From: Streptomyces sp. Q6
GTDB taxonomy: Bacteria; Actinomycetota; Actinomycetes; Streptomycetales; Streptomycetaceae
Direction of reading: 5' to 3'
DNA: 64,000 bases
NCBI RefSeq assembly: GCF_036967205.1
Contig: NZ_CP146022.1
Span: 6,882,001 to 6,946,000, forward strand
Under the pieces are notes generated by a model. It had not been told where the DNA came from. It worked only from the letters and a program-made list of their open reading frames with translations, and made no database searches. Below are positions 29,550 through 52,019 of the stretch, in pieces. The translations under genes and the position numbers were made by a program. Within the stretch, counting starts at the first letter, position 1. Each line of letters opens with the position of its first letter.

Positions 29550-29627
29550 CCGCCCGTCACGGTCCTAGCCGCCCGTCACGGTCCTGGCCGCCCGTGCTCG
29601 TCGTGCTCGTCGTGTTCATTGTGTTCG
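29541..29627. repeat. Three 19-bp tandem repeats followed by 9-bp repeats
   Basis: CGGTCCTAGCCGCCCGTCA starts at 29541, 29560 and (with changes) 29579; the regulator's TAG stop lies in the first copy. From about 29596 a 9-base unit (TGCTCGTCG and variants) follows four times. No function is apparent. Confidence 0.8.
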
Positions 29628-29636
29628 TCGTCCGAA

Positions 29637-29682
29637 TGTTCTGACAAAGTCATTGACGTTGCCGTGGGACCCCCGCTACAAA
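29637..29682 (+). promoter_or_regulatory. Operator and promoter in front of the first substrate-binding protein
   Basis: TGTTCTGACA (29637-29646) is a one-base variant of the GntR-type palindrome and lies immediately upstream of a likely promoter: TTGACG (29653-29658), 18-base spacer, TACAAA (29677-29682). The regulator would therefore act on polymerase binding. Confidence 0.6.
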
Positions 29683-29726
29683 CACCTCCAGCCGCACCGG
29701 GCGGCCGGAGGAGAGGTGGCTCGACC

Positions 29727-30728
29727 ATGCTCACGACGCGAACAGCCCGTACGGCCGCGGCCCTCGTCGCGGTGATCGCCCTCGCCGCCGGATGCAGCGG
29801 ATCGGGCGGCAAGGATTCCGAGGACAAGCCGGACGGGAGCGCCACCGGCGGCAAGGCCGTCGGCACGCCGCGTATGAAGATCGCGATGGTCACGCACTCC
29901 GGCGAGGGCGACACCTTCTGGGACATCGTGCAGAACGGCGCCGAACAGGCGGCCGCCAAGGACAACGTGCAGTTCCTCTACTCCAACGACAAGGAGGCGA
30001 AGGGGCAGGCCGAGCTCGTCCAGGCCGCGATCGACAAGAAGGTCGACGGGATCATCGTCACGCTCGCGAAGCCGCAGGCCATGGAGGCGGTCCTCGCGAA
30101 GGCGACGGCCGCGGGCATTCCGGTCGTGTCGATCAACTCGGGCTCCGAGTTCTCGGCGAAGTTCGGCGCCCTCAGCCACATAGGCCAGGAGGAGTCGGTG
30201 GCCGGCGAGGCGGTCGGCACCGAGCTGGCGAAGCAGGGCAGGAAGAAGGTCCTCTGCGTCATCCACGAGCAGGGCAACGTCTCGCTGGAGCAGCGCTGTG
30301 CCGGTGTGAAGAAGACCTTCAAGGGCTCCGTCGAGAACCTCAACGTGGACGGCACCAACGCCCCGAGCTCCCAGTCCTCCATCGAGGCCAAGCTCCAGGC
30401 CGACAAGTCCATCGACGCGATCGTCGCGCTCGGCGCCCCCATCGCGGCGCTCGCCGTCAAGGCGAAGGACGACGCGGGCAGCAAGGCGGACATCGCCACG
30501 TTCGACCTGAACGCCGAGGTCGTACGCCGCCTCAAGGCCAAGGAGGTCTCGTTCGCCGTGGACCAGCAGCCCTATCTCCAGGGCTATCTGGCCGTCGACG
30601 AACTCTGGCTCTACAAGACGAACGCCAACGTCCTCGGCGGCGGAAAGCCCGTCTTCACCGGCCCCGCGCTCGTCACAGAGAAGGACGTGCCGAAGCTGGA
30701 GAAGTACACCGCGCGCGGCACCCGGTGA
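29727..30728 (+). CDS. Sugar ABC transporter substrate-binding lipoprotein (first copy)
   Basis: The 333-residue protein has a lipoprotein signal peptide (LTTRTARTAAALVAVIALAAGC; lipobox LAAGC, about residues 16-20) and a periplasmic-binding-protein type I domain of the ribose/xylose class ([84 protein letters not shown]). It captures a sugar or polyol outside the membrane. ATG 29727 has GGAGGAGAGG upstream. A second, clearly related binding protein follows at 30869. The two share motif order and many identical stretches, including [13 protein letters not shown], so they are tandem duplicates. Confidence 0.92.
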   Translation: MLTTRTARTAAALVAVIALAAGCSGSGGKDSEDKPDGSATGGKAVGTPRMKIAMVTHSGEGDTFWDIVQNGAEQAAAKDNVQFLYSNDKEAKGQAELVQAAIDKKVDGIIVTLAKPQAMEAVLAKATAAGIPVVSINSGSEFSAKFGALSHIGQEESVAGEAVGTELAKQGRKKVLCVIHEQGNVSLEQRCAGVKKTFKGSVENLNVDGTNAPSSQSSIEAKLQADKSIDAIVALGAPIAALAVKAKDDAGSKADIATFDLNAEVVRRLKAKEVSFAVDQQPYLQGYLAVDELWLYKTNANVLGGGKPVFTGPALVTEKDVPKLEKYTARGTR

Positions 30729-30767
30729 ATGGATGCATGATCCCCGTGACCCATACTTGTGCGTTTG

Positions 30768-30805
30768 GGACCGCAAACTGGTCCCCAAGGACCAGTAAAT
30801 GGTCC
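30768..30805. promoter_or_regulatory. Tandem GGACC-N7-GGTCC palindromes before the second binding protein
   Basis: GGACCGCAAACTGGTCC (30768-30784) and GGACCAGTAAATGGTCC (30789-30805) are two 17-base palindromic units with a 21-base period in the 140-base gap between the two binding-protein genes. No similar pair was seen before the first copy. A transcription-factor site is likely; an RNA hairpin (CTGGTCC/GGACCAG) is also possible. Confidence 0.7.
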
Positions 30806-30868
30806 ACCGGGTCCGGCCCACCGCCGGCCCCGGTGTACGACGCAGCAGACCAAGAAGGGCACGGCCTC

Positions 30869-31873
30869 GTGGCACGGTTTCGGACCTGGGTGAGCATCGC
30901 CGTAGCGGGGGCCCTCGGCCTCACGCTCGCCGGGTGCAGCAGCACCGGCGGCAAGCGGGCGGAGGATGCCAGGAAGGCCCAGCAGGCCCAGGGCAAGGCG
31001 GCAGTGGACACACCCCGCTGGACCATCGCGATGATCACCCACTCGGGTGATGGCGACACCTTCTGGGACATCGTCCAGAGCGGCGCCGAGCAGGCGGCGG
31101 TCAAGGACAACATCAACTTCCTGTACTCGCACAACGACGAGGCCCAGCAGCAGGCCCAGCTGGTCGACGCGGCCGTCGACAAGAAGGTCGACGGCATCAT
31201 CGTCACGCTGGCCAAGCCCGACGCGATGAAGGCGGCCGTGGCCCGCGCCGAGAAGGCGGGCATCCCCGTCATCACCGTGAACTCGGGCTCCGCGGAGTCC
31301 AAGCGGTTCGGCGCGCTCACCCACATCGGCCAGGACGAGACCATCGCCGGTGAAGCCGTCGGCGAGGAGCTCGACAAGCGCGGCAAGAAGAAGGCCCTGT
31401 GCGTCCTGCACGAGCAGGGCAACGTCGGCCACGAGCAGCGCTGCGCCGGAGCGAAGTCGAAGTTCGACGGCCGGATGACGAACCTCTACGTCGAGGGCAC
31501 CAACATGCCCGACGTGCAGTCCGCGATCGAGGCCAAGCTCCAGTCCGACCCGTCCATCGACTCGGTCGTCACGCTCGGCGCGCCGTTCGCCGCCACCGCC
31601 GTGAAGGCCAAGGAGGACGCGGGCAGCAAGGCCGAGATCGAGACCTTCGACCTGAACGAGAAGGTCGCCCAGGGCCTCCAGGACGGCAGCCTCGGCTTCG
31701 CCGTCGACCAGCAGCCGTACCTCCAGGGCTACGAGGCCGTGGACCTGCTGTGGCTGTACAAGTACAACGCCAATGTGCTCGGCGGCGGCAAGCCGGTCCT
31801 CACCGGACCGCAGATCGTCACCAAGGATCAGGCCGCCGAGCTGGAGGAATACGCGAAGCGGGGGACACGATGA
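30869..31873 (+). CDS. Sugar ABC transporter substrate-binding lipoprotein (second copy)
   Basis: The 334-residue paralogue of the preceding gene begins at GTG 30869 with a signal peptide and lipobox LAGC ([19 protein letters not shown]). The mature part repeats the same fold and key stretches ([72 protein letters not shown]). Its TGA overlaps the permease ATG by four bases, so this copy, not the first, is coupled to the transporter. Separate palindromic control in front of it suggests the two copies respond to different signals or bind different ligands. Confidence 0.92.
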
Positions 31874-44507: not shown

Positions 44508-45263
44508 CTACCGTGGCCCGTCGGAGCGCCACGTCCACACGAGCCGGCTGTGTGTCTTGTCCAGCAGGTGCCCCGCGGGCAGCTCGGTGTCAGGCGTTCC
44601 GGCGGGGTGGACTTCCAACGCGGGGTATCCGCGGCCCCGTTCGTGAACGTCCCAACGTACGACGGCTGCGGCGAGCCGATCGGCCAGGGCGGGCCCGGTC
44701 GGACCGAAGCCGTGAACCACGAACTCCGACCGGCGCTGGTCGGGCGTGGGTCCGTCCTGCACGAGGGTGTGGGTGAGGTGGGCGAGAGAGCCGTCGGCTG
44801 TGATCGCGGCGGCGTCCGAGCGCCGGGGCAGCGTGGTGATCCCGCTGTCCTGATCACGGTTACGGGTGAGTCGGCAGAAGCCGGGCAGTGTCGTGGCGAG
44901 GAACAGTTGCAGGGTCTCGAACGACTCGTCGCCGGCCACGGTCACGCCGGTCGCCGCTTCGTGGCGCGGGCCCGCGAGGGCCTCGTCGAGCCCGGCGGTG
45001 TCGGCGTGCACGCCGTCGGGGAAGCGCAGACGCAGTTCGCCGTCGCCGAGATCGACGGCAGGCACCACGCGGGCAGTGGGCCCTCGGTCGCGGACGAACC
45101 CGCAGAACGTGAAGCCGGTCGCACGCAGCACCTGGCCGTGCTTCCGGAAGGCGATGGAACGGGTGTAGCCGTGGACCTCCAGGCGGGCGGGACCCGCGCG
45201 GCTAGGGCATCTCGATGGGGCACCGAACCGGACCAGAACGTCCCGCGGGGCGCCGAGCCTCAT
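44508..45263 (-). pseudogene. Remnant of an FxLD-system-type methyltransferase (C-terminal domain only)
   Basis: The 251-codon frame matches the C-terminal half of protein-isoaspartate-methyltransferase-like enzymes annotated as methyltransferase, FxLD system. It shows RLEVHGYTRSIAFRKHGQVLRATGFTFCGFV, ATGVTVAGDESFETLQLFLATT, then FVVHGFGPTGPALADRLAAAV and the tail LEVHPAGTPDTELPAGHLLDKTHSRLV. The SAM-binding N-terminal domain is absent, and the first 25 codons read like a frameshifted end of it. Such enzymes methylate Asp in lanthipeptide-like precursors; no precursor or synthetase is present. The truncation lies at the left border of a less GC-rich island. Confidence 0.7.
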
Positions 45264-45461
45264 TCATCGATCGCCACGAAGCTCCTCGCCCCAGTCACCA
45301 CCGCGGAGCATGCGATCAGCAGTACCGCCACGAAGGGGCGAGGCTCTCCGTGCCAGCACCGCGGATCGGCCAGCGTGGCCGGCCGGTCGGCCGGCGAACC
45401 GATCGCACGGTGCTGACGGGTGGGCGACTTAACCTTGCGAACGGTGGCAGTCTGACGACAC

Positions 45462-45521
45462 ATCGAAGCTCCGTTGGGTGCAGGCGACTTGAAAAGGTCA
45501 CCTCCGCAACGGAGCTTCGAT
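45462..45521. repeat. Perfect 15-bp inverted repeat with 30-base spacer
   Basis: ATCGAAGCTCCGTTG (45462-45476) and CAACGGAGCTTCGAT (45507-45521) are exact complements. It could be a terminator, an operator or a former mobile-element end; no transposase gene is near. Confidence 0.8.
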
Positions 45522-45665
45522 ACGTGTGGTCGCGCGCCCATCGACCATCGTCACGCTGCTGTGACCTGCGCACTCACAAGATCCCCAGGACTTTGCAATC
45601 GCCCTGGCCTCCGGGATACGCCCCCTCCCTGGCCGGAGCACCCCAAAGCGAACAAAGAGGCCAGG

Positions 45666-45725
45666 GTGCAAAACATCATGACATCACGACTACCTGAAAT
45701 CACTCGGGTCTCCGTGTACGGGTAG
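45666..45725 (+). CDS. Possible 19-residue peptide
   Basis: GTG 45666 is preceded by AAAGAGG at five bases and opens a frame for MQNIMTSRLPEITRVSVYG before TAG; ATG 45678 would give 15 residues. It lies 180 bases upstream of the beta-propeller gene and runs the same way. It may be a leader or precursor peptide, or chance. Confidence 0.25.
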   Translation: MQNIMTSRLPEITRVSVYG

Positions 45726-45904
45726 TTTCAAAGTGCACTCACCTACTGGCAATGAGGTATCAAAGGGCTCGCAAGAGTAAGCAAAGGGCCTTCCTGTGAT
45801 CTGTGCACACGTGGCAAGCTCCCGTCATCAGCACAGCTCTCCAAAGAAACCCAACGGCGGGTTCGCGTCGTAGGTTTTCGCTGCGTGGTGAACGGGAGTC
45901 ATTC

Positions 45905-47626
45905 ATGCCGAGCCCTTGGCGCCGCCATAGCGACGCACCATTGTCTCATCCGCAGGCGGTTATCGAGACGGCACTCCCACTCAGGGGGTTGGGTCGGGTT
46001 CCGCAGGTCATCGAGGGTGACCTGTCACTCTTGACCTACGTGGATGCGACAAAGTCGTACGACTATCGACGTGTTCGCGCGGACGGGACGGTCCTATGGC
46101 ATCAGGCCTACCCCTCTGGCGGGTACGCGTCTGCGGCCTACAATAGTGGCACTAATTCCCTCTGTGGACCGTCCGGTTACTTCGGTTACGTCGAAATTGA
46201 TTGGGAAACCGGCGATCTCATCAGGCGCTATTACCTTGAGCGTCGAGTTCGCGCTACACCCGTACCCGTGGATTCCGGTTTCATGGCTACAGCAGGAAAC
46301 CGGATCTACCGACTCTCTCAGGACAGCGGGGTCCGCCACGGCGAGCAGGAAAGGCACGTGTTCTTCGGTCACGCGGTGACCCACGACGGCCTGTTCATCA
46401 CGGCCGGGGTCGAGCGTGACGGCACTGACACGTTCACGATCGTCGCGGCGTTCGATACGAACACCCTCGAGCAGGTATGGCACACGCGGCTTGCCGAGGC
46501 CGTCATGCCCAGCTGTGACACCAGCGGGCTGGTCCTTCATGGCGGGACCGTCTACATCAACTTGCCGGGCCCCATGTCCGCGGCAGTGGATGCGAGGACG
46601 GGATCGCTGGTGTGGCGGAGCGAGCTCCCGACGGACGCGAGCAGGCCGTCCATCGTGTGCCGAAGTCGCCCCACCATCGAAACCGTGACTGATAGCAGCC
46701 CGAACCTGCTGGTCACCAGCCTGCAGGGCGAAGTGTTCAGCCTCGACGCGCTGTCCGGGGCCCTCAACTGGACGTCAGTCCCGGATGTAAGCGCCGGTAT
46801 CTGGTCCCCGGCCATCGCAATCGGCGACGACATCGTTGTCCACAGCGGTGTGTTCCTCTTTGGTCTCGCACCGCGGACCGGCGAGTCACGTTGGTGCACG
46901 CCGGTCGGCTTCGACGCGTACACGATGCCGGTCGAAGTGGACGGACGGATCGTCCTGTGTGGCGGCGACCCGCCGAACGACGGCTACCTGGCCGTCATCA
47001 ACCCCAGCTGCAAGACGCCGCCGCCCCAGGTGACCACGGCCTATCAGCAGGGCGAATCGCGGGACGTGCTGTCCATCGTGTTCAGCCCCTCCGCTTCATC
47101 CCAGAAGATCGATGTCACCGTCGACCTGCGGATGTTCGGACGCTCCGCCCACGAGAAACTGCACCCCGACCTGACCGGACGCCTGGAATGGCGGGGAGAC
47201 GTCCTGCCGACCAAGCGATTGGGCGAAAGCGTCGTCTACGCCACCGTCCACACGGCCGGGCAGGACACCATCCTGCCGATCTACATCGATGCTGGCGCTC
47301 GTACGCATCCGTCCGAACCCAGCGCCTTGGCGATGGACACGGACGAAATGCCCGGGACACAGGAACGGCGCACCGATTCCGGAGGCCTCGTCGTATCCGC
47401 GGTCGCCCGCCGCCACGGTCACGACCTCGATCCTGACGAGATCGAGAACGCGGCTGCGTGGATGAGGGACGAAGGCATCAGCCCGCACTTCATCTGGCGT
47501 TCGGGAGCCGAGCGCATTCTTATGGCCTCTCAGCTGCCCCTGCCCGAGTCGCAGGGGCGCTCCATAGACACCCAGGAGATAGAGCGCGTTCTGTCCGCCT
47601 GGGAAAAGGACCAGGTCAGCAACTGA
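45905..47626 (+). CDS. PQQ-type beta-propeller repeat protein
   Basis: The 573-residue protein has at least six repeats of the PQQ/WD40-like kind, each with a Trp- or Gly-rich blade: DGTVLWHQAYPSGG, TNTLEQVWHTRLAEA, DARTGSLVWRSELP, DALSGALNWTSVPD, APRTGESRWCTPVG and NDGYLAVINPS. This part spans about residues 20-370. The rest (370-573) is a beta-sandwich-like region (VDLRMFGRSAHEKLHPDLTGRLEW) and a helical tail (DLDPDEIENAAAWMRDEGISPHFIWR). No signal peptide is visible. ATG 45905 has GGGAG seven bases before it. Codon use is visibly less GC-biased than in the flanks. It is followed by a C39-like gene; the function is unknown. Confidence 0.85.
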   Translation: MPSPWRRHSDAPLSHPQAVIETALPLRGLGRVPQVIEGDLSLLTYVDATKSYDYRRVRADGTVLWHQAYPSGGYASAAYNSGTNSLCGPSGYFGYVEIDWETGDLIRRYYLERRVRATPVPVDSGFMATAGNRIYRLSQDSGVRHGEQERHVFFGHAVTHDGLFITAGVERDGTDTFTIVAAFDTNTLEQVWHTRLAEAVMPSCDTSGLVLHGGTVYINLPGPMSAAVDARTGSLVWRSELPTDASRPSIVCRSRPTIETVTDSSPNLLVTSLQGEVFSLDALSGALNWTSVPDVSAGIWSPAIAIGDDIVVHSGVFLFGLAPRTGESRWCTPVGFDAYTMPVEVDGRIVLCGGDPPNDGYLAVINPSCKTPPPQVTTAYQQGESRDVLSIVFSPSASSQKIDVTVDLRMFGRSAHEKLHPDLTGRLEWRGDVLPTKRLGESVVYATVHTAGQDTILPIYIDAGARTHPSEPSALAMDTDEMPGTQERRTDSGGLVVSAVARRHGHDLDPDEIENAAAWMRDEGISPHFIWRSGAERILMASQLPLPESQGRSIDTQEIERVLSAWEKDQVSN

Positions 47627-47663
47627 CTGCTGCTTGGTCACTCAACAAGAGAACGAGGTGTAC

Positions 47664-48425
47664 ATGCTCGTCACTGACGGCTACAACGAAACCTCGGGTG
47701 TGGCTGGTGCCGGTTTGCTGGCCGGCAACTACTACGACCCCTACCCGCCGCGCTACATCGCCAACGCCAAGGAACTTCTGGCTCAGGGCCTGCCGATGAT
47801 CGTGCGTCAGCACCCTGGCGTGCGCTACCCGATGCCCGACCAGGAGCTCTTCGAGCGGGTCGACGCGGAAGGTCACATCGTCGCCCGTGTCGGCTACGAC
47901 CACGCAGCAGGTATGAGCATCCTGGCCGATCCGTGGGCGAAGAAGGAGTGGGGCGGCGACTACGGCGCCCTGTGCCAGGACCGCGAGGAGGACGACTCCG
48001 GTCTGATCAACATGAACTCCTCCTGCGACTACTCGTGCTTCGGCGTGCCGCTGCCGACCAAGCTGACGGTCAGCCAGCAGTCGGAGAGCACTGCGACCGT
48101 CCGGCTCGACGTCACATTCAAGATGCCGCACACCATGACTTCCACGGTGTCCAGCATCGAGAACCTGACGGTGAGCATCGCCCTTCCCAACGGGATGGAA
48201 CTCGTCGGGGAGCAGCGCCAGAGCCTTGGCGTCGTCACGCCGGGCGAGACGCGCACCGTCGAGTGGACCGTCCGTGAGACGGCCGATGTCGATGGAGAGA
48301 TCCGCGTTGCTGCCGTGGGCTTGGCCAACGGTACGCAGCCGTATCACTTCACCGATGTCATTGGTGGCCAGGCGCGCCTGGCCGTCCGCTCGCACCAGCG
48401 CGAGCACAGTGCTGCCGCAGCCTAG
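47664..48425 (+). CDS. C39-fold-like protein lacking the Cys segment, with a C-terminal Ig-like domain
   Basis: The 253-residue protein contains LLAQGLPMIVRQHPG, GHIVARVGYDHAAGMSILADPWAKKEWGG, which is exactly the His and Asp half of a C39-type peptidase (H-x-V-x-x-x-GYD ... DPW). The usual N-terminal 60 residues with the catalytic Cys are missing; the protein instead begins MLVTDGYNETSGVAGAGLL. A Cys pair (SSCDYSC, about residue 122) follows, then an immunoglobulin-like domain (TATVRLDVTFKMPHTMTST ... GETRTVEWTVRETADVDGEIRV). ATG 47664 has GAGGTG in front; GTG 47634 is weaker. It lies 37 bases after the propeller gene and is closed by a terminator. Confidence 0.7.
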   Translation: MLVTDGYNETSGVAGAGLLAGNYYDPYPPRYIANAKELLAQGLPMIVRQHPGVRYPMPDQELFERVDAEGHIVARVGYDHAAGMSILADPWAKKEWGGDYGALCQDREEDDSGLINMNSSCDYSCFGVPLPTKLTVSQQSESTATVRLDVTFKMPHTMTSTVSSIENLTVSIALPNGMELVGEQRQSLGVVTPGETRTVEWTVRETADVDGEIRVAAVGLANGTQPYHFTDVIGGQARLAVRSHQREHSAAAA

Positions 48426-48493
48426 GGCTTCGGCAAGTGCATCCGGACCGACCAGTTTGACGATGTCTTCTGATCGGAACGGCTGGTGAAGCG

Positions 48494-48530
48494 GCCGCAG
48501 CGGAGAACCCGTAACGTTCTCCGCTGCGGC
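48494..48530. terminator. Perfect 15-bp hairpin terminator
   Basis: GCCGCAGCGGAGAAC (48494-48508) pairs fully with GTTCTCCGCTGCGGC (48516-48530) around a 7-base loop, separating the propeller/C39-like pair from the MFS operon. Confidence 0.92.
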
Positions 48531-48551
48531 CCAGCAAAGACAGGGATTCTC

Positions 48552-49829
48552 ATGGGAAAACGCCGCAGTCTGTCGCTGTTCTGGGCAGGATACGCCGCCT
48601 CCCAGATAGGCACCGCGGCATGGCGGCTCGCACTGCCGTGGGTCGCTTTGGTGCAGACCAGCAGCGTGTGGTCTTTGGTGGCCGTATCACTGGCGACGAT
48701 CGTTCCGGAGCTTGTATTTGGTCCCCTAGGCGGAACGCTGGCCGATCGGCTGCCGCGCCTGCCGACCTTGATGACCATGGACGCGGGCCGCATGGTTCTC
48801 TATGGGATCACTTGTCTCCTCGTTATCGGGTCGGGGGACCATTCCTCGGCGATCACCTACGGGCTCACTGCGGTCCAGGCCCTGGATGCCAGTGTCGGGA
48901 TCCTGTACACCTCCACGCGTACGGCAGTGTTGCGCGAGCTCTCCACTCACGCTGATGTGCCGCTCAAGAGCCTTCTGGGCAAGGACCGTGCTGTCCGCAA
49001 CACCGCCGACATCGTCGGAACCGGCGCGGGCGGTGCCATGGTGGCCGCTACCTCAATGTCGGTTGTGCTGGGAGTGAATGCCGCTTCCTTCCTGCTGGCC
49101 CTCATCGGACTCAGTTTGGTCTGGTCACTGTTCCCTCGCGAGGCCCGGTGGGTTCGGCCTGCCACAAAAGCGCGCGATGGGAAGTCCTTCACCTGGGAAG
49201 GAGCACGTATCGCCAAGCACCAGCCGCTTGTCCGTGACGCACTCAGCAGGCAATTGGTCCTCAACCTTCCCATGCCTGTCATCACCCTCGGCTTTCCGCT
49301 CATTCTCGAGGCCAGAGGCGCCTCAGCCACGATGCTCGGACTCACCTGGGCCGCCTTTTCCCTAGGGTCCCTGGGCATGTCGCTCTACACCGGGCGGCGA
49401 AAGGATGAGTCGATGGGAAATCGCCCCCGCCGGGGCTGGCTGATCACCGCCGGGGCCACCTTCCTCTTGGCCGCCGCCCTAACGCTTCCGACACCCTGCA
49501 TGCCTGTCCTCCTTGTCGTCCTGGGTGTCCTGTTCACGCGCACGCTGCTGGATGCCAACCTTCAATGGCAGACCCGGCTCGATTCGCAAGTCACCGGACG
49601 AGTCGCCGCTTTGGCCTCCGTGCTCGCCAGAGTCGCGGCCGTCTTGTCAACGGTGGCCGTCGCAGCCGTCGCCTCCTGGGGGCACAAGAGCGCAGGACTT
49701 CCCTCAACAGCACTCGCCATAACGGTCATCGCGCTGGGCTTCCTCATGGCCGCGCCCTGCGGCGACACGGCATCGGCAGGGGCAGAACCCGCTCCGACAC
49801 CACCGGCACGAACTGTCGGCACCCGCTGA
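48552..49829 (+). CDS. Major facilitator superfamily exporter
   Basis: The 425-residue protein has about twelve membrane helices and the MFS loop motif in FGPLGGTLADRLPRLPTLMTMDAGRM (between helices 2 and 3). Its class resembles enterobactin- or macrolide-exporter MFS proteins (MFS_3: DALSRQLVLNLPMPVITLGFPLI, WAAFSLGSLGMSLYTGRR). ATG 48552 (MGKRRSLSLFWAGYAASQIG) follows CAGGGA. A TIM-barrel and a methyltransferase gene follow at 24 and -4 bases, so all three form an operon; the exporter may remove their product. Confidence 0.9.
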   Translation: MGKRRSLSLFWAGYAASQIGTAAWRLALPWVALVQTSSVWSLVAVSLATIVPELVFGPLGGTLADRLPRLPTLMTMDAGRMVLYGITCLLVIGSGDHSSAITYGLTAVQALDASVGILYTSTRTAVLRELSTHADVPLKSLLGKDRAVRNTADIVGTGAGGAMVAATSMSVVLGVNAASFLLALIGLSLVWSLFPREARWVRPATKARDGKSFTWEGARIAKHQPLVRDALSRQLVLNLPMPVITLGFPLILEARGASATMLGLTWAAFSLGSLGMSLYTGRRKDESMGNRPRRGWLITAGATFLLAAALTLPTPCMPVLLVVLGVLFTRTLLDANLQWQTRLDSQVTGRVAALASVLARVAAVLSTVAVAAVASWGHKSAGLPSTALAITVIALGFLMAAPCGDTASAGAEPAPTPPARTVGTR

Positions 49830-49853
49830 ATACCTTGCGAAAGGAGTGCCTGG

Positions 49854-50561
49854 ATGCACCTCTACAGTCTCACGTCGTCCAAAGTGATCGACGAAAAGAT
49901 CCACGTACTTCGAGAACTGGACCTCGCGCCCGCCGTCGTCTTCCACTCTGGCGACAGCGTCGACGACATCACAACAACTCTTAAATACGCGAAGGAGTTT
50001 GACCCACCTACGATCGCCCACCTCCCCTTCCGTGACATCCAACTCGACGAAGATGTCCCGGACCGGCGTGCAAGTGTGGACAAGCTCGTAGGGGCAGGAC
50101 TGCAAGCAGCCCGAGCTGGCGCGTCCCGACTGCTGCTGCACTCCTTCCTCCCCTATCAGGCCACCCGGGCCCCGTCCCAGGTCCTCGATGCCATGGCAGA
50201 AGTGGCACATCGGCTCCACCCCCACGCTGAGATCATCGTCGAGAACACCTTCGAGACGCGTCCTGGCCCGTTCGCCGCGCTACTCGAACACATCGATGCT
50301 CAGGCAGCCCTGGACATCCCCAGACTCGTCTGGCGCGGTTCGACCCCCTCACAGTGGTGGGACGCGGTCGGCCACCGCGTCGTCGCCCTTCATGCGTACG
50401 GCAGCCAAGGAGAGGACCATCACGGTCCTCTCACAGCAGCGGACACGGCCTGGTTGCGCCAAGCCTCCGACTACACCAGCGGGGTAGACGTCCTCCTCGA
50501 CGTACCGCGAGACGAGCTTGCGCCAAGCAAGTCGGCTGTCCTGGACGTTCTGAAGCAGTGA
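49854..50561 (+). CDS. Xylose-isomerase-like TIM-barrel protein
   Basis: The 235-residue protein looks like the AP endonuclease family 2 / sugar-phosphate isomerase TIM barrel. Metal-site-type residues appear at strand ends: AHLPFRD, LLLHSFLP (His), IIVENTFETRP (Glu), ALDIPRLVW (Asp) and VVALHAYGSQGEDHHGPL (His, His). It could be an isomerase, epimerase or a metal-dependent oxidase of this fold. ATG 49854 has AAAGGAG. The start of the methyltransferase gene overlaps its stop by three bases, so the two enzymes very likely act on the same pathway. Confidence 0.8.
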   Translation: MHLYSLTSSKVIDEKIHVLRELDLAPAVVFHSGDSVDDITTTLKYAKEFDPPTIAHLPFRDIQLDEDVPDRRASVDKLVGAGLQAARAGASRLLLHSFLPYQATRAPSQVLDAMAEVAHRLHPHAEIIVENTFETRPGPFAALLEHIDAQAALDIPRLVWRGSTPSQWWDAVGHRVVALHAYGSQGEDHHGPLTAADTAWLRQASDYTSGVDVLLDVPRDELAPSKSAVLDVLKQ

Positions 50562-51379
50562 CTACGGACAACGACCGGCGAGTCGAGTCCAACCGCACGC
50601 TGTGGAACGAGTGGGCTGCCCGCCACGGTGACAAAGCCATGGCCGCGACGGTGAAGCGGCTCCAGCCCGTCGGATCCACCACGCTCCGCGACTTCGAGGT
50701 CGAAGACATCGGAGACGTAGCCCAAGCCCGCTTGCTGCATCTGCAGTGCATGTTCGGTGCAGACACCATCAGTTGGAGCCGCCAAGGGGCACGCGCAACC
50801 GGTCTCGACTTCTCTGAGGAAGCCATCCACGTAGCCCGTCGCATAGCCGAGCGACTGGATGATCCCACGCAGTTTCACTGCGCAGAGATCGAGGAATTCG
50901 AAGCATCGCACGCAGGGAGCTTTGACGTCGTATATGCCTCGCGGGGTGTTGTGCGCTGGTTGCCCGACCTGAACCAATGGTTCAGCCACGTAGCTCGCTT
51001 GCTGAAACCCGGCGGCCTCTTCCATCTGAACGACACCCACCCAATCCTCAAGACGCTACGTGAAGACGCACTTGAGCCCACACCCACGTACGCCTACTTC
51101 TCGACAAGCAGCCCAAGTCGCATCCCGGTGCCGCGGGCCGGCTCGAACGGGCAGGCCGCGAAGTATCTTTGGACACATGATCTAGGTGCCATTGTCACTG
51201 CTGCGGCAGGTGCTGGGCTGACCGTATCCCGGCTATGCGAATACCCCTGGACCGAACGCGAACTTCCTTTCCTGCAAAGGGGTGTGCCAGCCTATCGCTG
51301 GAGACTAAAAAATGGCGAACTCCCTCTACATTTCTCCTTTAAGGCCGTGAGGCCGAGATATGAAACCGCTTCGGCTTAA
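50558..51379 (+). CDS. Class I SAM-dependent methyltransferase
   Basis: The 273-residue enzyme has motif I as LLHLQCMFGADTISWSRQGARATGLDFSEEAIHVAR (SAM-binding loop and acidic end of strand 2), FHCAEIEEFE (motif II region), SFDVVYASRGVVRWLPDLNQWFSHVARLLKPGGLFHLND (motif III) and HFSFKAVRP at the end. Small molecules or peptides are possible substrates. GTG 50558 overlaps the TIM-barrel stop (GTGA). Codons are relatively AT-rich near the 3' end (CTAAAAAATGGCGAACTC). It is the last gene of the island before decayed NUDIX genes. Confidence 0.9.
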   Translation: MTTDNDRRVESNRTLWNEWAARHGDKAMAATVKRLQPVGSTTLRDFEVEDIGDVAQARLLHLQCMFGADTISWSRQGARATGLDFSEEAIHVARRIAERLDDPTQFHCAEIEEFEASHAGSFDVVYASRGVVRWLPDLNQWFSHVARLLKPGGLFHLNDTHPILKTLREDALEPTPTYAYFSTSSPSRIPVPRAGSNGQAAKYLWTHDLGAIVTAAAGAGLTVSRLCEYPWTERELPFLQRGVPAYRWRLKNGELPLHFSFKAVRPRYETASA

Positions 51380-51409
51380 TGCGCTCCCGGAATTCTTCAT
51401 TGCCGCTGG

Positions 51410-52019
51410 TCAACGGCTTGAGTGTGAGGAGTGACAGTGCGTGGCGGTGAAGAACATCTGGATGCGGGGGATCAGGCTGTCCGGGGCGAGGTGGTCCAGG
51501 GTGTGGACCAGTCGGAGGTCCGTGGGGGCTACGGTGAGGCCGGTCTCCTCGGCGTACTCGCGGACCAGGCACGCGAGCGTGGACTCGCCGGGCTCGCGGT
51601 GACCGGTCGGCAGATGCCCGTACGAGGACGAGGTGCGCGCCGACGATGCTGCGGTCCTGGTGCGCGGCCGGTGCCGGTTCGGTGATCTGGAGGACGGCGG
51701 GCAGACCGGTCGTGTCGAGGCGGGGGCGCGGATCACGGCGGTGCTCGTCGAGGATCGCCAGGGTGCTGGGGCACATCGTCATCTCGGCGGTCTCCTCGAC
51801 GGACGTCCAGCGCAGTTGGACGCCTTCGCGGAGTGCGATCTCGTCGGCGCTCTCCCCGGGTTCGAGGCGGCCGCCGAGCAGGCACCAGTGGCCGGCCCGC
51901 CAGATCGGTCTGTTGGCCGCGCGCAGGTGCAGGAGGTACTCGCCGGCGCCGTTGACGAGGAGGGCGGCGGTGCCGTCCGTGGGGCGTACGGGCGCGGGGG
52001 CGGTGTCGGAAAGGGGCAC
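51410..52019 (-). pseudogene. Two NUDIX hydrolase genes collapsed into one decayed frame
   Basis: From GTG 52019 (AAGGAG in front) the frame encodes the start of a NUDIX protein (TDGTAALLVNGAGEYLLHLRAANRPIWRAGHWCLLGGRLEPGESADEIALRE). It then jumps straight to the C-terminal family part (GVQLRWTSVEETAEMTMCPSTLAILDEHR), missing about 50 residues including the EExG. A second NUDIX start follows (RSIVGAHLVLVR), then a frame change near 51625, and an intact NUDIX box in the other frame (GHREPGESTLACLVREYAEETGL) ending early at 51410. Both genes thus carry internal deletions at the right border of the island. Confidence 0.7.

Follow-up and report, generated by a model that had tools for sequence, protein, structure and literature searches.

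A GC-poor five-gene island, very probably acquired from elsewhere, in a decayed FxLD methyltransferase/NUDIX locus of Streptomyces sp. Q6

Related systems

Genomic islands of foreign origin are thought to account for a large share of the chemical diversity of actinomycetes. The locus described here lies between remnants of an FxLD methyltransferase/NUDIX locus (TIGR04364), a type of peptide-modification locus represented in our comparison by three loci, L064, L065 and L068. The gene order in L064 is an ABC transporter gene, a multi-NUDIX gene, other genes and an FxLD methyltransferase gene. The domains of these loci also occur in single chains: L064 (14339-16711) and L068 (7780-10161) each encode a fusion of about 790 residues, which joins a class I methyltransferase, a NUDIX domain and an FxLD-system methyltransferase, and in a further locus, L137 (6631-8781), an ABC transporter gene is followed downstream by one for a 716-residue methyltransferase-NUDIX-NUDIX fusion. 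No FxLD-like precursor motif is found in the L064 and L068 fusion loci. L068 contains an MFS gene whose product is 25% identical to part of P3, one of the proteins described below, indicating that FxLD loci can carry exporters of their own.

Three further families are relevant to the genes of the island. In C39 peptidases, the catalytic cysteine sits in the N-terminal half of the domain. MFS efflux pumps of the TIGR00900 and Tap types resemble P3. Among TIM-barrel proteins, CbiR is described as a cobamide-remodelling phosphodiesterase (PMC7733943), and TTHB071 of Thermus (PDB codes: 3ayt, 3ayv) is listed as uncharacterised.

The window analysed here is a stretch of 64,000 nucleotides, bases 6,882,001-6,946,000 of the 8,566,166-base contig. 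The flanks of the island show the same gene order as L064. In contrast to L064, L065 and L068, the window has only a truncated methyltransferase gene and lacks the middle of the locus.

A GC-poor block with five genes

The GC content is 0.60-0.66 across about 45.2-51.4 kb of the window and 0.70-0.74 in the adjoining DNA. The island proper, 45609-51408 (about 5.8 kb), has a GC content of 0.631, compared with a host mean of 0.711 (standard deviation 0.024) obtained from 1,440 sliding 5.8-kb windows over 20 segments of 20 kb placed at even intervals along the contig. Twenty-three of these host windows are as GC-low as the island, and all 23 fall within a single segment containing an rRNA operon with 23S, 16S and 5S rRNA genes, the sole sampled segment with GC that low. 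A GC-poor island, proposed previously from the letters and open reading frames (the sequence-only reading), is thus borne out. The proposed span of 45264-52019 holds in part: the island proper stops at about 51.4 kb, and 51.45-52.02 kb belongs to the flank. The block contains the following features.

P1, 45905-47626, plus strand: 573 residues, PQQ/BamB-like beta-propeller followed by a C-terminal part without assignment
P2, 47664-48425, plus strand: 253 residues, weak match to the end of C39_2, then an Ig/NEW3-like domain
Hairpin, 48493-48531, plus strand: two perfect 16-base arms and a 7-base loop
P3, 48552-49829, plus strand: 425 residues, MFS exporter
P4, 49854-50561, plus strand: 235 residues, TIM barrel of the AP endonuclease 2 type, distantly CbiR-like
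P5, 50558-51379, plus strand: 273 residues, class I SAM methyltransferase, overlapping the end of P4

Likely gene starts, chosen by visual inspection of the upstream sequence and of overlaps between stop and start codons, revise those given earlier, placing P1 at ATG 45905, P2 at ATG 47664, P3 at ATG 48552 rather than 48486, and P5 at GTG 50558; plausible ribosome-binding sites precede most of the five starts. No Rfam family is matched in 44-53 kb, no tRNA gene is present in the whole window, and a comparison of four proteins with phage protein families yields a single match with an E value of 0.029.

Deviating codon use had also been proposed, and this is true of four of the five genes. The GC content at the third codon position (GC3) is low in P1 (0.78), P3 (0.74), P4 (0.72) and P5 (0.67), values reached by 13, 4, 4 and 0, respectively, of 244 sampled host open reading frames called by a program that favours high GC3, whereas P2 has an ordinary GC3 of 0.85 (44 of the 244 are as low). 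Codon-adaptation values overstate the contrast, since their reference set consists of 20 genes of the window picked for high GC3. The five intact reading frames share one strand and one GC-poor block with no further gene between them, and this arrangement would suit a single undescribed pathway, gained as a unit, for the synthesis and export of a peptide or small molecule. GC3 is unequal between the two gene groups (0.80 for P1 and P2 together, 0.72 for P3 to P5), which argues against a single pathway and suggests that the groups may be of separate origin.

The decayed locus on both sides

Three decayed features border the island.

FxLD-system methyltransferase gene, 44508-45184, minus strand: C-terminal part, with the N-terminal part gone
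ISAs1-family insertion sequence (IS), 45185-45606, minus strand: 5' part with one terminal repeat at 45589-45606, the 3' part gone
Two-NUDIX gene, 51449-52019, minus strand: decayed, island-side end cut, collinear with residues 420-661 of the L137 protein

The methyltransferase remnant matches positions 181-394 of TIGR04364 with 156 bits, below the cut-off of 320, and is 53% identical to the L064 sequence and 36% identical to that of L137. It had been recognised as a methyltransferase remnant, and it is indeed the C-terminal part of an FxLD-system methyltransferase, but about the first 26 codons assigned to it are IS sequence. The truncated IS, which the sequence-only reading did not mention, passes at about 45185 directly into the C-terminal half of the methyltransferase gene. 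The fragment is 81% identical in nucleotide sequence to an element carried by a Streptomyces plasmid, with which it has its terminal repeat in common, and 77% identical in amino acid sequence to an annotated ISAs1 transposase; its match to Pfam DDE_Tnp_1_assoc is below the cut-off. Transposase homology and a terminal inverted repeat place it in the ISAs1 family as an incomplete element, whose 3' part is missing beyond about 45185. In the plasmid copy each end carries a repeat, and visual inspection shows a 10-base target-site duplication; 12 of the 13 plasmid records matching the IS are from Streptomyces. Searches of this genome find no second copy of the 5' part and, in a search run without a positive control, no remainder of the element.

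The right boundary lies between the P5 stop codon (51379) and 51449. Alignment of 51449-52019 with the 716-residue L137 protein shows a 49-residue gap and a frame change. Decay of the NUDIX region, as proposed earlier, is thus evident, but the two collapsed genes proposed there correspond to one in L137, where both NUDIX domains belong to a single protein. The two edges are about 6.3 kb apart in the window. Since they match points about 7.9 kb apart in L064, the island and the IS fragment occupy the position of the middle of the locus. Either this middle was replaced in one step, or the island entered after the locus had decayed.

No empty site is present in 14 loci around homologues of the ABC transporter gene or in ten further loci, the nearest outside ABC homologue being 77% identical by DNA. 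Beyond the ABC gene, L137 has in common with the window the NUDIX gene of 54.0-54.7 kb, another of the 14 loci has two genes from the 22-24 kb region, and one of the ten further loci has the helicase gene of 37-38.6 kb (each at an identity of at least 45%).

A putative modification-and-export operon

P3 is matched over most of its length by MFS efflux pumps of the TIGR00900 and Tap types, but with scores far under the cut-offs (110 bits against TIGR00900 for the longer reading frame; cut-off 319.6), and it has no Pfam match. P4 scores 50.5 bits against the CbiR model NF041277, below the curated cut-off of 105, and shares with CbiR a TIM barrel in which His, Glu and Asp occupy motif positions where they could bind a metal. 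TTHB071 is a far homologue (E value of 0.003 over P4 residues 46-214), and the H, E and D motifs of the two proteins align. The motif positions of P4 hold His-56, His-96, Glu-130, Asp-154, His-180, Asp-188 and His-190, which suggests a putative metal site in which these residues may take part. No cobamide gene is found among eight proteins scanned in 44.5-54.1 kb.

P5 matches PF08242 with 55 bits and retains 38 of the 49 columns conserved in 32 relatives. A PADLOC scan for defence genes gives one match, that of P5 to mad2 (E value of 1e-12), which lies within the methyltransferase part of mad2. The start of P5 is inside the last codons of P4, and P3 and P4 are separated by 24 bases, so P3, P4 and P5 may well be co-transcribed. 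From what is known of the three families, they probably form a small-molecule modification-and-export operon. A search for peptide precursors, restricted to an FxLD-like motif, finds none in reading frames of 25-110 codons in 41-55 kb or in six relatives.

The fold of 48440-48560, which includes the hairpin between P2 and P3, has a z score of -4.31, and none of 200 shuffled sequences folds as well. The hairpin lacks a T-run and is missing from the list of a terminator scan. Since it stops 20 bases upstream of the P3 start, it could be either the terminator of P1-P2 or a leader element of P3-P5. A hairpin between the two gene groups speaks against a single pathway encoded by all five genes.

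A beta-propeller protein and a weakly C39-like protein without the cysteine-bearing half

The propeller part of P1 scores 69.9 bits against PF13360, above the threshold of 27.6. Residues 1-125 of P2 show a weak resemblance to C39_2 (PF13529; E value of 0.005, 17.8 bits, curated cut-off 24), and its C-terminal half resembles the NEW3/NPCBM-associated domain (PF10633; 19.2 bits, curated cut-off 24.4). A single-sequence structure model of P2 has a mean pLDDT of 49, and the sole fairly confident part is an Ig-like sheet region at about residues 131-221 (pLDDT mostly 54-83). Assignment of P2 to the papain-type (C1) peptidases was dropped, as it has no Pfam C1 match.

The cysteines of P2 are at positions 104, 121 and 125 only, all of them C-terminal of the candidate residues His-71 and Asp-89. 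Unlike C39 peptidases, P2 has no cysteine before residue 104, and so the half of the C39 fold that bears the catalytic cysteine is missing. The earlier description of P2 as a C39-fold-like protein without its Cys segment therefore holds as to the missing half, the likeness itself being weak and under the cut-off. One possibility is that P1 and P2 make up a binding pair; another is that P2 is what is left of a peptidase.

The second of these possibilities belongs to a wider explanation, that the whole stretch is a decaying fragment without present function, in which P2 would be the truncated end of a cysteine peptidase that was once secreted and P1 would have lost its signal sequence. The missing Cys half of P2, the absence of a hydrophobic N-terminus from both P1 and P2, and the decay of both flanks are consistent with this. 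On the other hand, all five reading frames are open, most of them with plausible ribosome-binding sites, P2 keeps its third-position GC bias, and P5 keeps its motifs, so that decay of the island as a whole is possible but doubtful.

Distribution and origin

Searches with P2 in 245 other genomes of the genus and in 393 other genomes of the class give no match, and the same is true of P4 in 245 other genomes of the genus and in 295 other genomes of the class. Neither protein is matched in plasmids, phages, viral contigs or genome contigs, where the viral-contig and genome-contig scans, seeded by exact 8-residue patterns, detect close relatives only. P1 is absent from 196 other class genomes at a threshold of 1e-6, has a single match among plasmids, a 28% identical propeller of Halorussus, and has no useful relative in viral contigs. 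The genome searches with P1, P2 and P4 scored at most 6-11 candidates per genome in partly overlapping samples, from which distant relatives can have escaped. Other queries in the same genome search did find matches: the methyltransferase remnant in 30 of 60 genomes, the NUDIX/ABC stretch in 135 of 241, and P5, at 1e-15, in 58 of 196 other class genomes with an identity of at most 41%. P3 has no match at 1e-10 in plasmids, the set searched for it.

The P5 family is also common in plasmids (43 records, the best on Nocardia plasmids), with no useful relative in viral contigs. The nearest plasmid relatives of P5 are on two Nocardia plasmids with a similar backbone; these methyltransferases have 37-40% identity to P5 across 93-98% of its length, and their genes follow a GntR regulator gene, with no MFS or TIM-barrel gene annotated nearby. 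In the 29 genome loci of P5 relatives that were read, with flanks of at most 1.5 kb, none of P1 to P4 occurs at an E value of 1e-3. No paper on this gene set was found in the open-licence part of PubMed Central.

The joint pathway of synthesis and export suggested by the sequence-only reading is not borne out by these data: P1 to P4 do not accompany P5 relatives in the 29 loci, and the hairpin parts the gene groups. In its fullest form, such an undescribed system would comprise a cytosolic propeller and a C39-like protein without the Cys half that together bind or shape a peptide or small molecule, a new TIM-barrel enzyme and a methyltransferase that modify it, and an MFS protein that exports it, the unit coming from an unsequenced lineage. 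P1, P2 and P4 are absent from the searched genomes, which leaves no other genome in which co-occurrence of the five genes could be scored. Both the general and the fullest form of a single pathway are unlikely.

The stretch of about 6 kb was very probably acquired from elsewhere. Horizontal gain, which had been put forward earlier, agrees with the composition, the absence of P2 and P4 from the same-genus genomes and the IS at the edge, and as judged from sequence the case for lateral acquisition is good, falling short of proof for lack of an empty site. No donor or second copy of the island was found in the sets searched. The stretch could instead be old resident DNA of odd composition that relatives have lost, as the failure to find a donor and the position of the strain's nearest relatives outside the sample would allow. 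The absence from 245 other same-genus genomes would require very many losses, and together with the low GC content and the IS fragment at the edge it makes long residence highly improbable.

A single explanation that combines the island, the scars at its edges, the P3-P5 operon and the P1-P2 pair has, in our estimate, a probability of about 0.55. A genomic island of about 5.8 kb would have displaced or entered the central part of a decaying FxLD/NUDIX locus, leaving an IS scar at the left edge and a cut NUDIX gene at the right edge, and would carry two gene groups with a strong hairpin between them. A metal-dependent isomerase or hydrolase with a TIM barrel (P4) and a SAM methyltransferase (P5) would alter a small molecule, and P3 would pump the altered molecule out of the cell for production or self-protection. 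The P1 propeller and P2, the C39-like protein without the catalytic cysteine, may form a cytosolic binding pair, the link of which to P3-P5 is unproven.

Three of the five island genes have no close relative in the searched collections, which points to a gene pool missed by present sampling. Should P3-P5 turn out to modify and export a compound, P4 would represent an additional branch of the CbiR-like TIM barrels. Elsewhere in the window, at 29619-31873, two adjoining and similar genes for substrate-binding-protein-like products also have a lower GC content (0.66-0.68).
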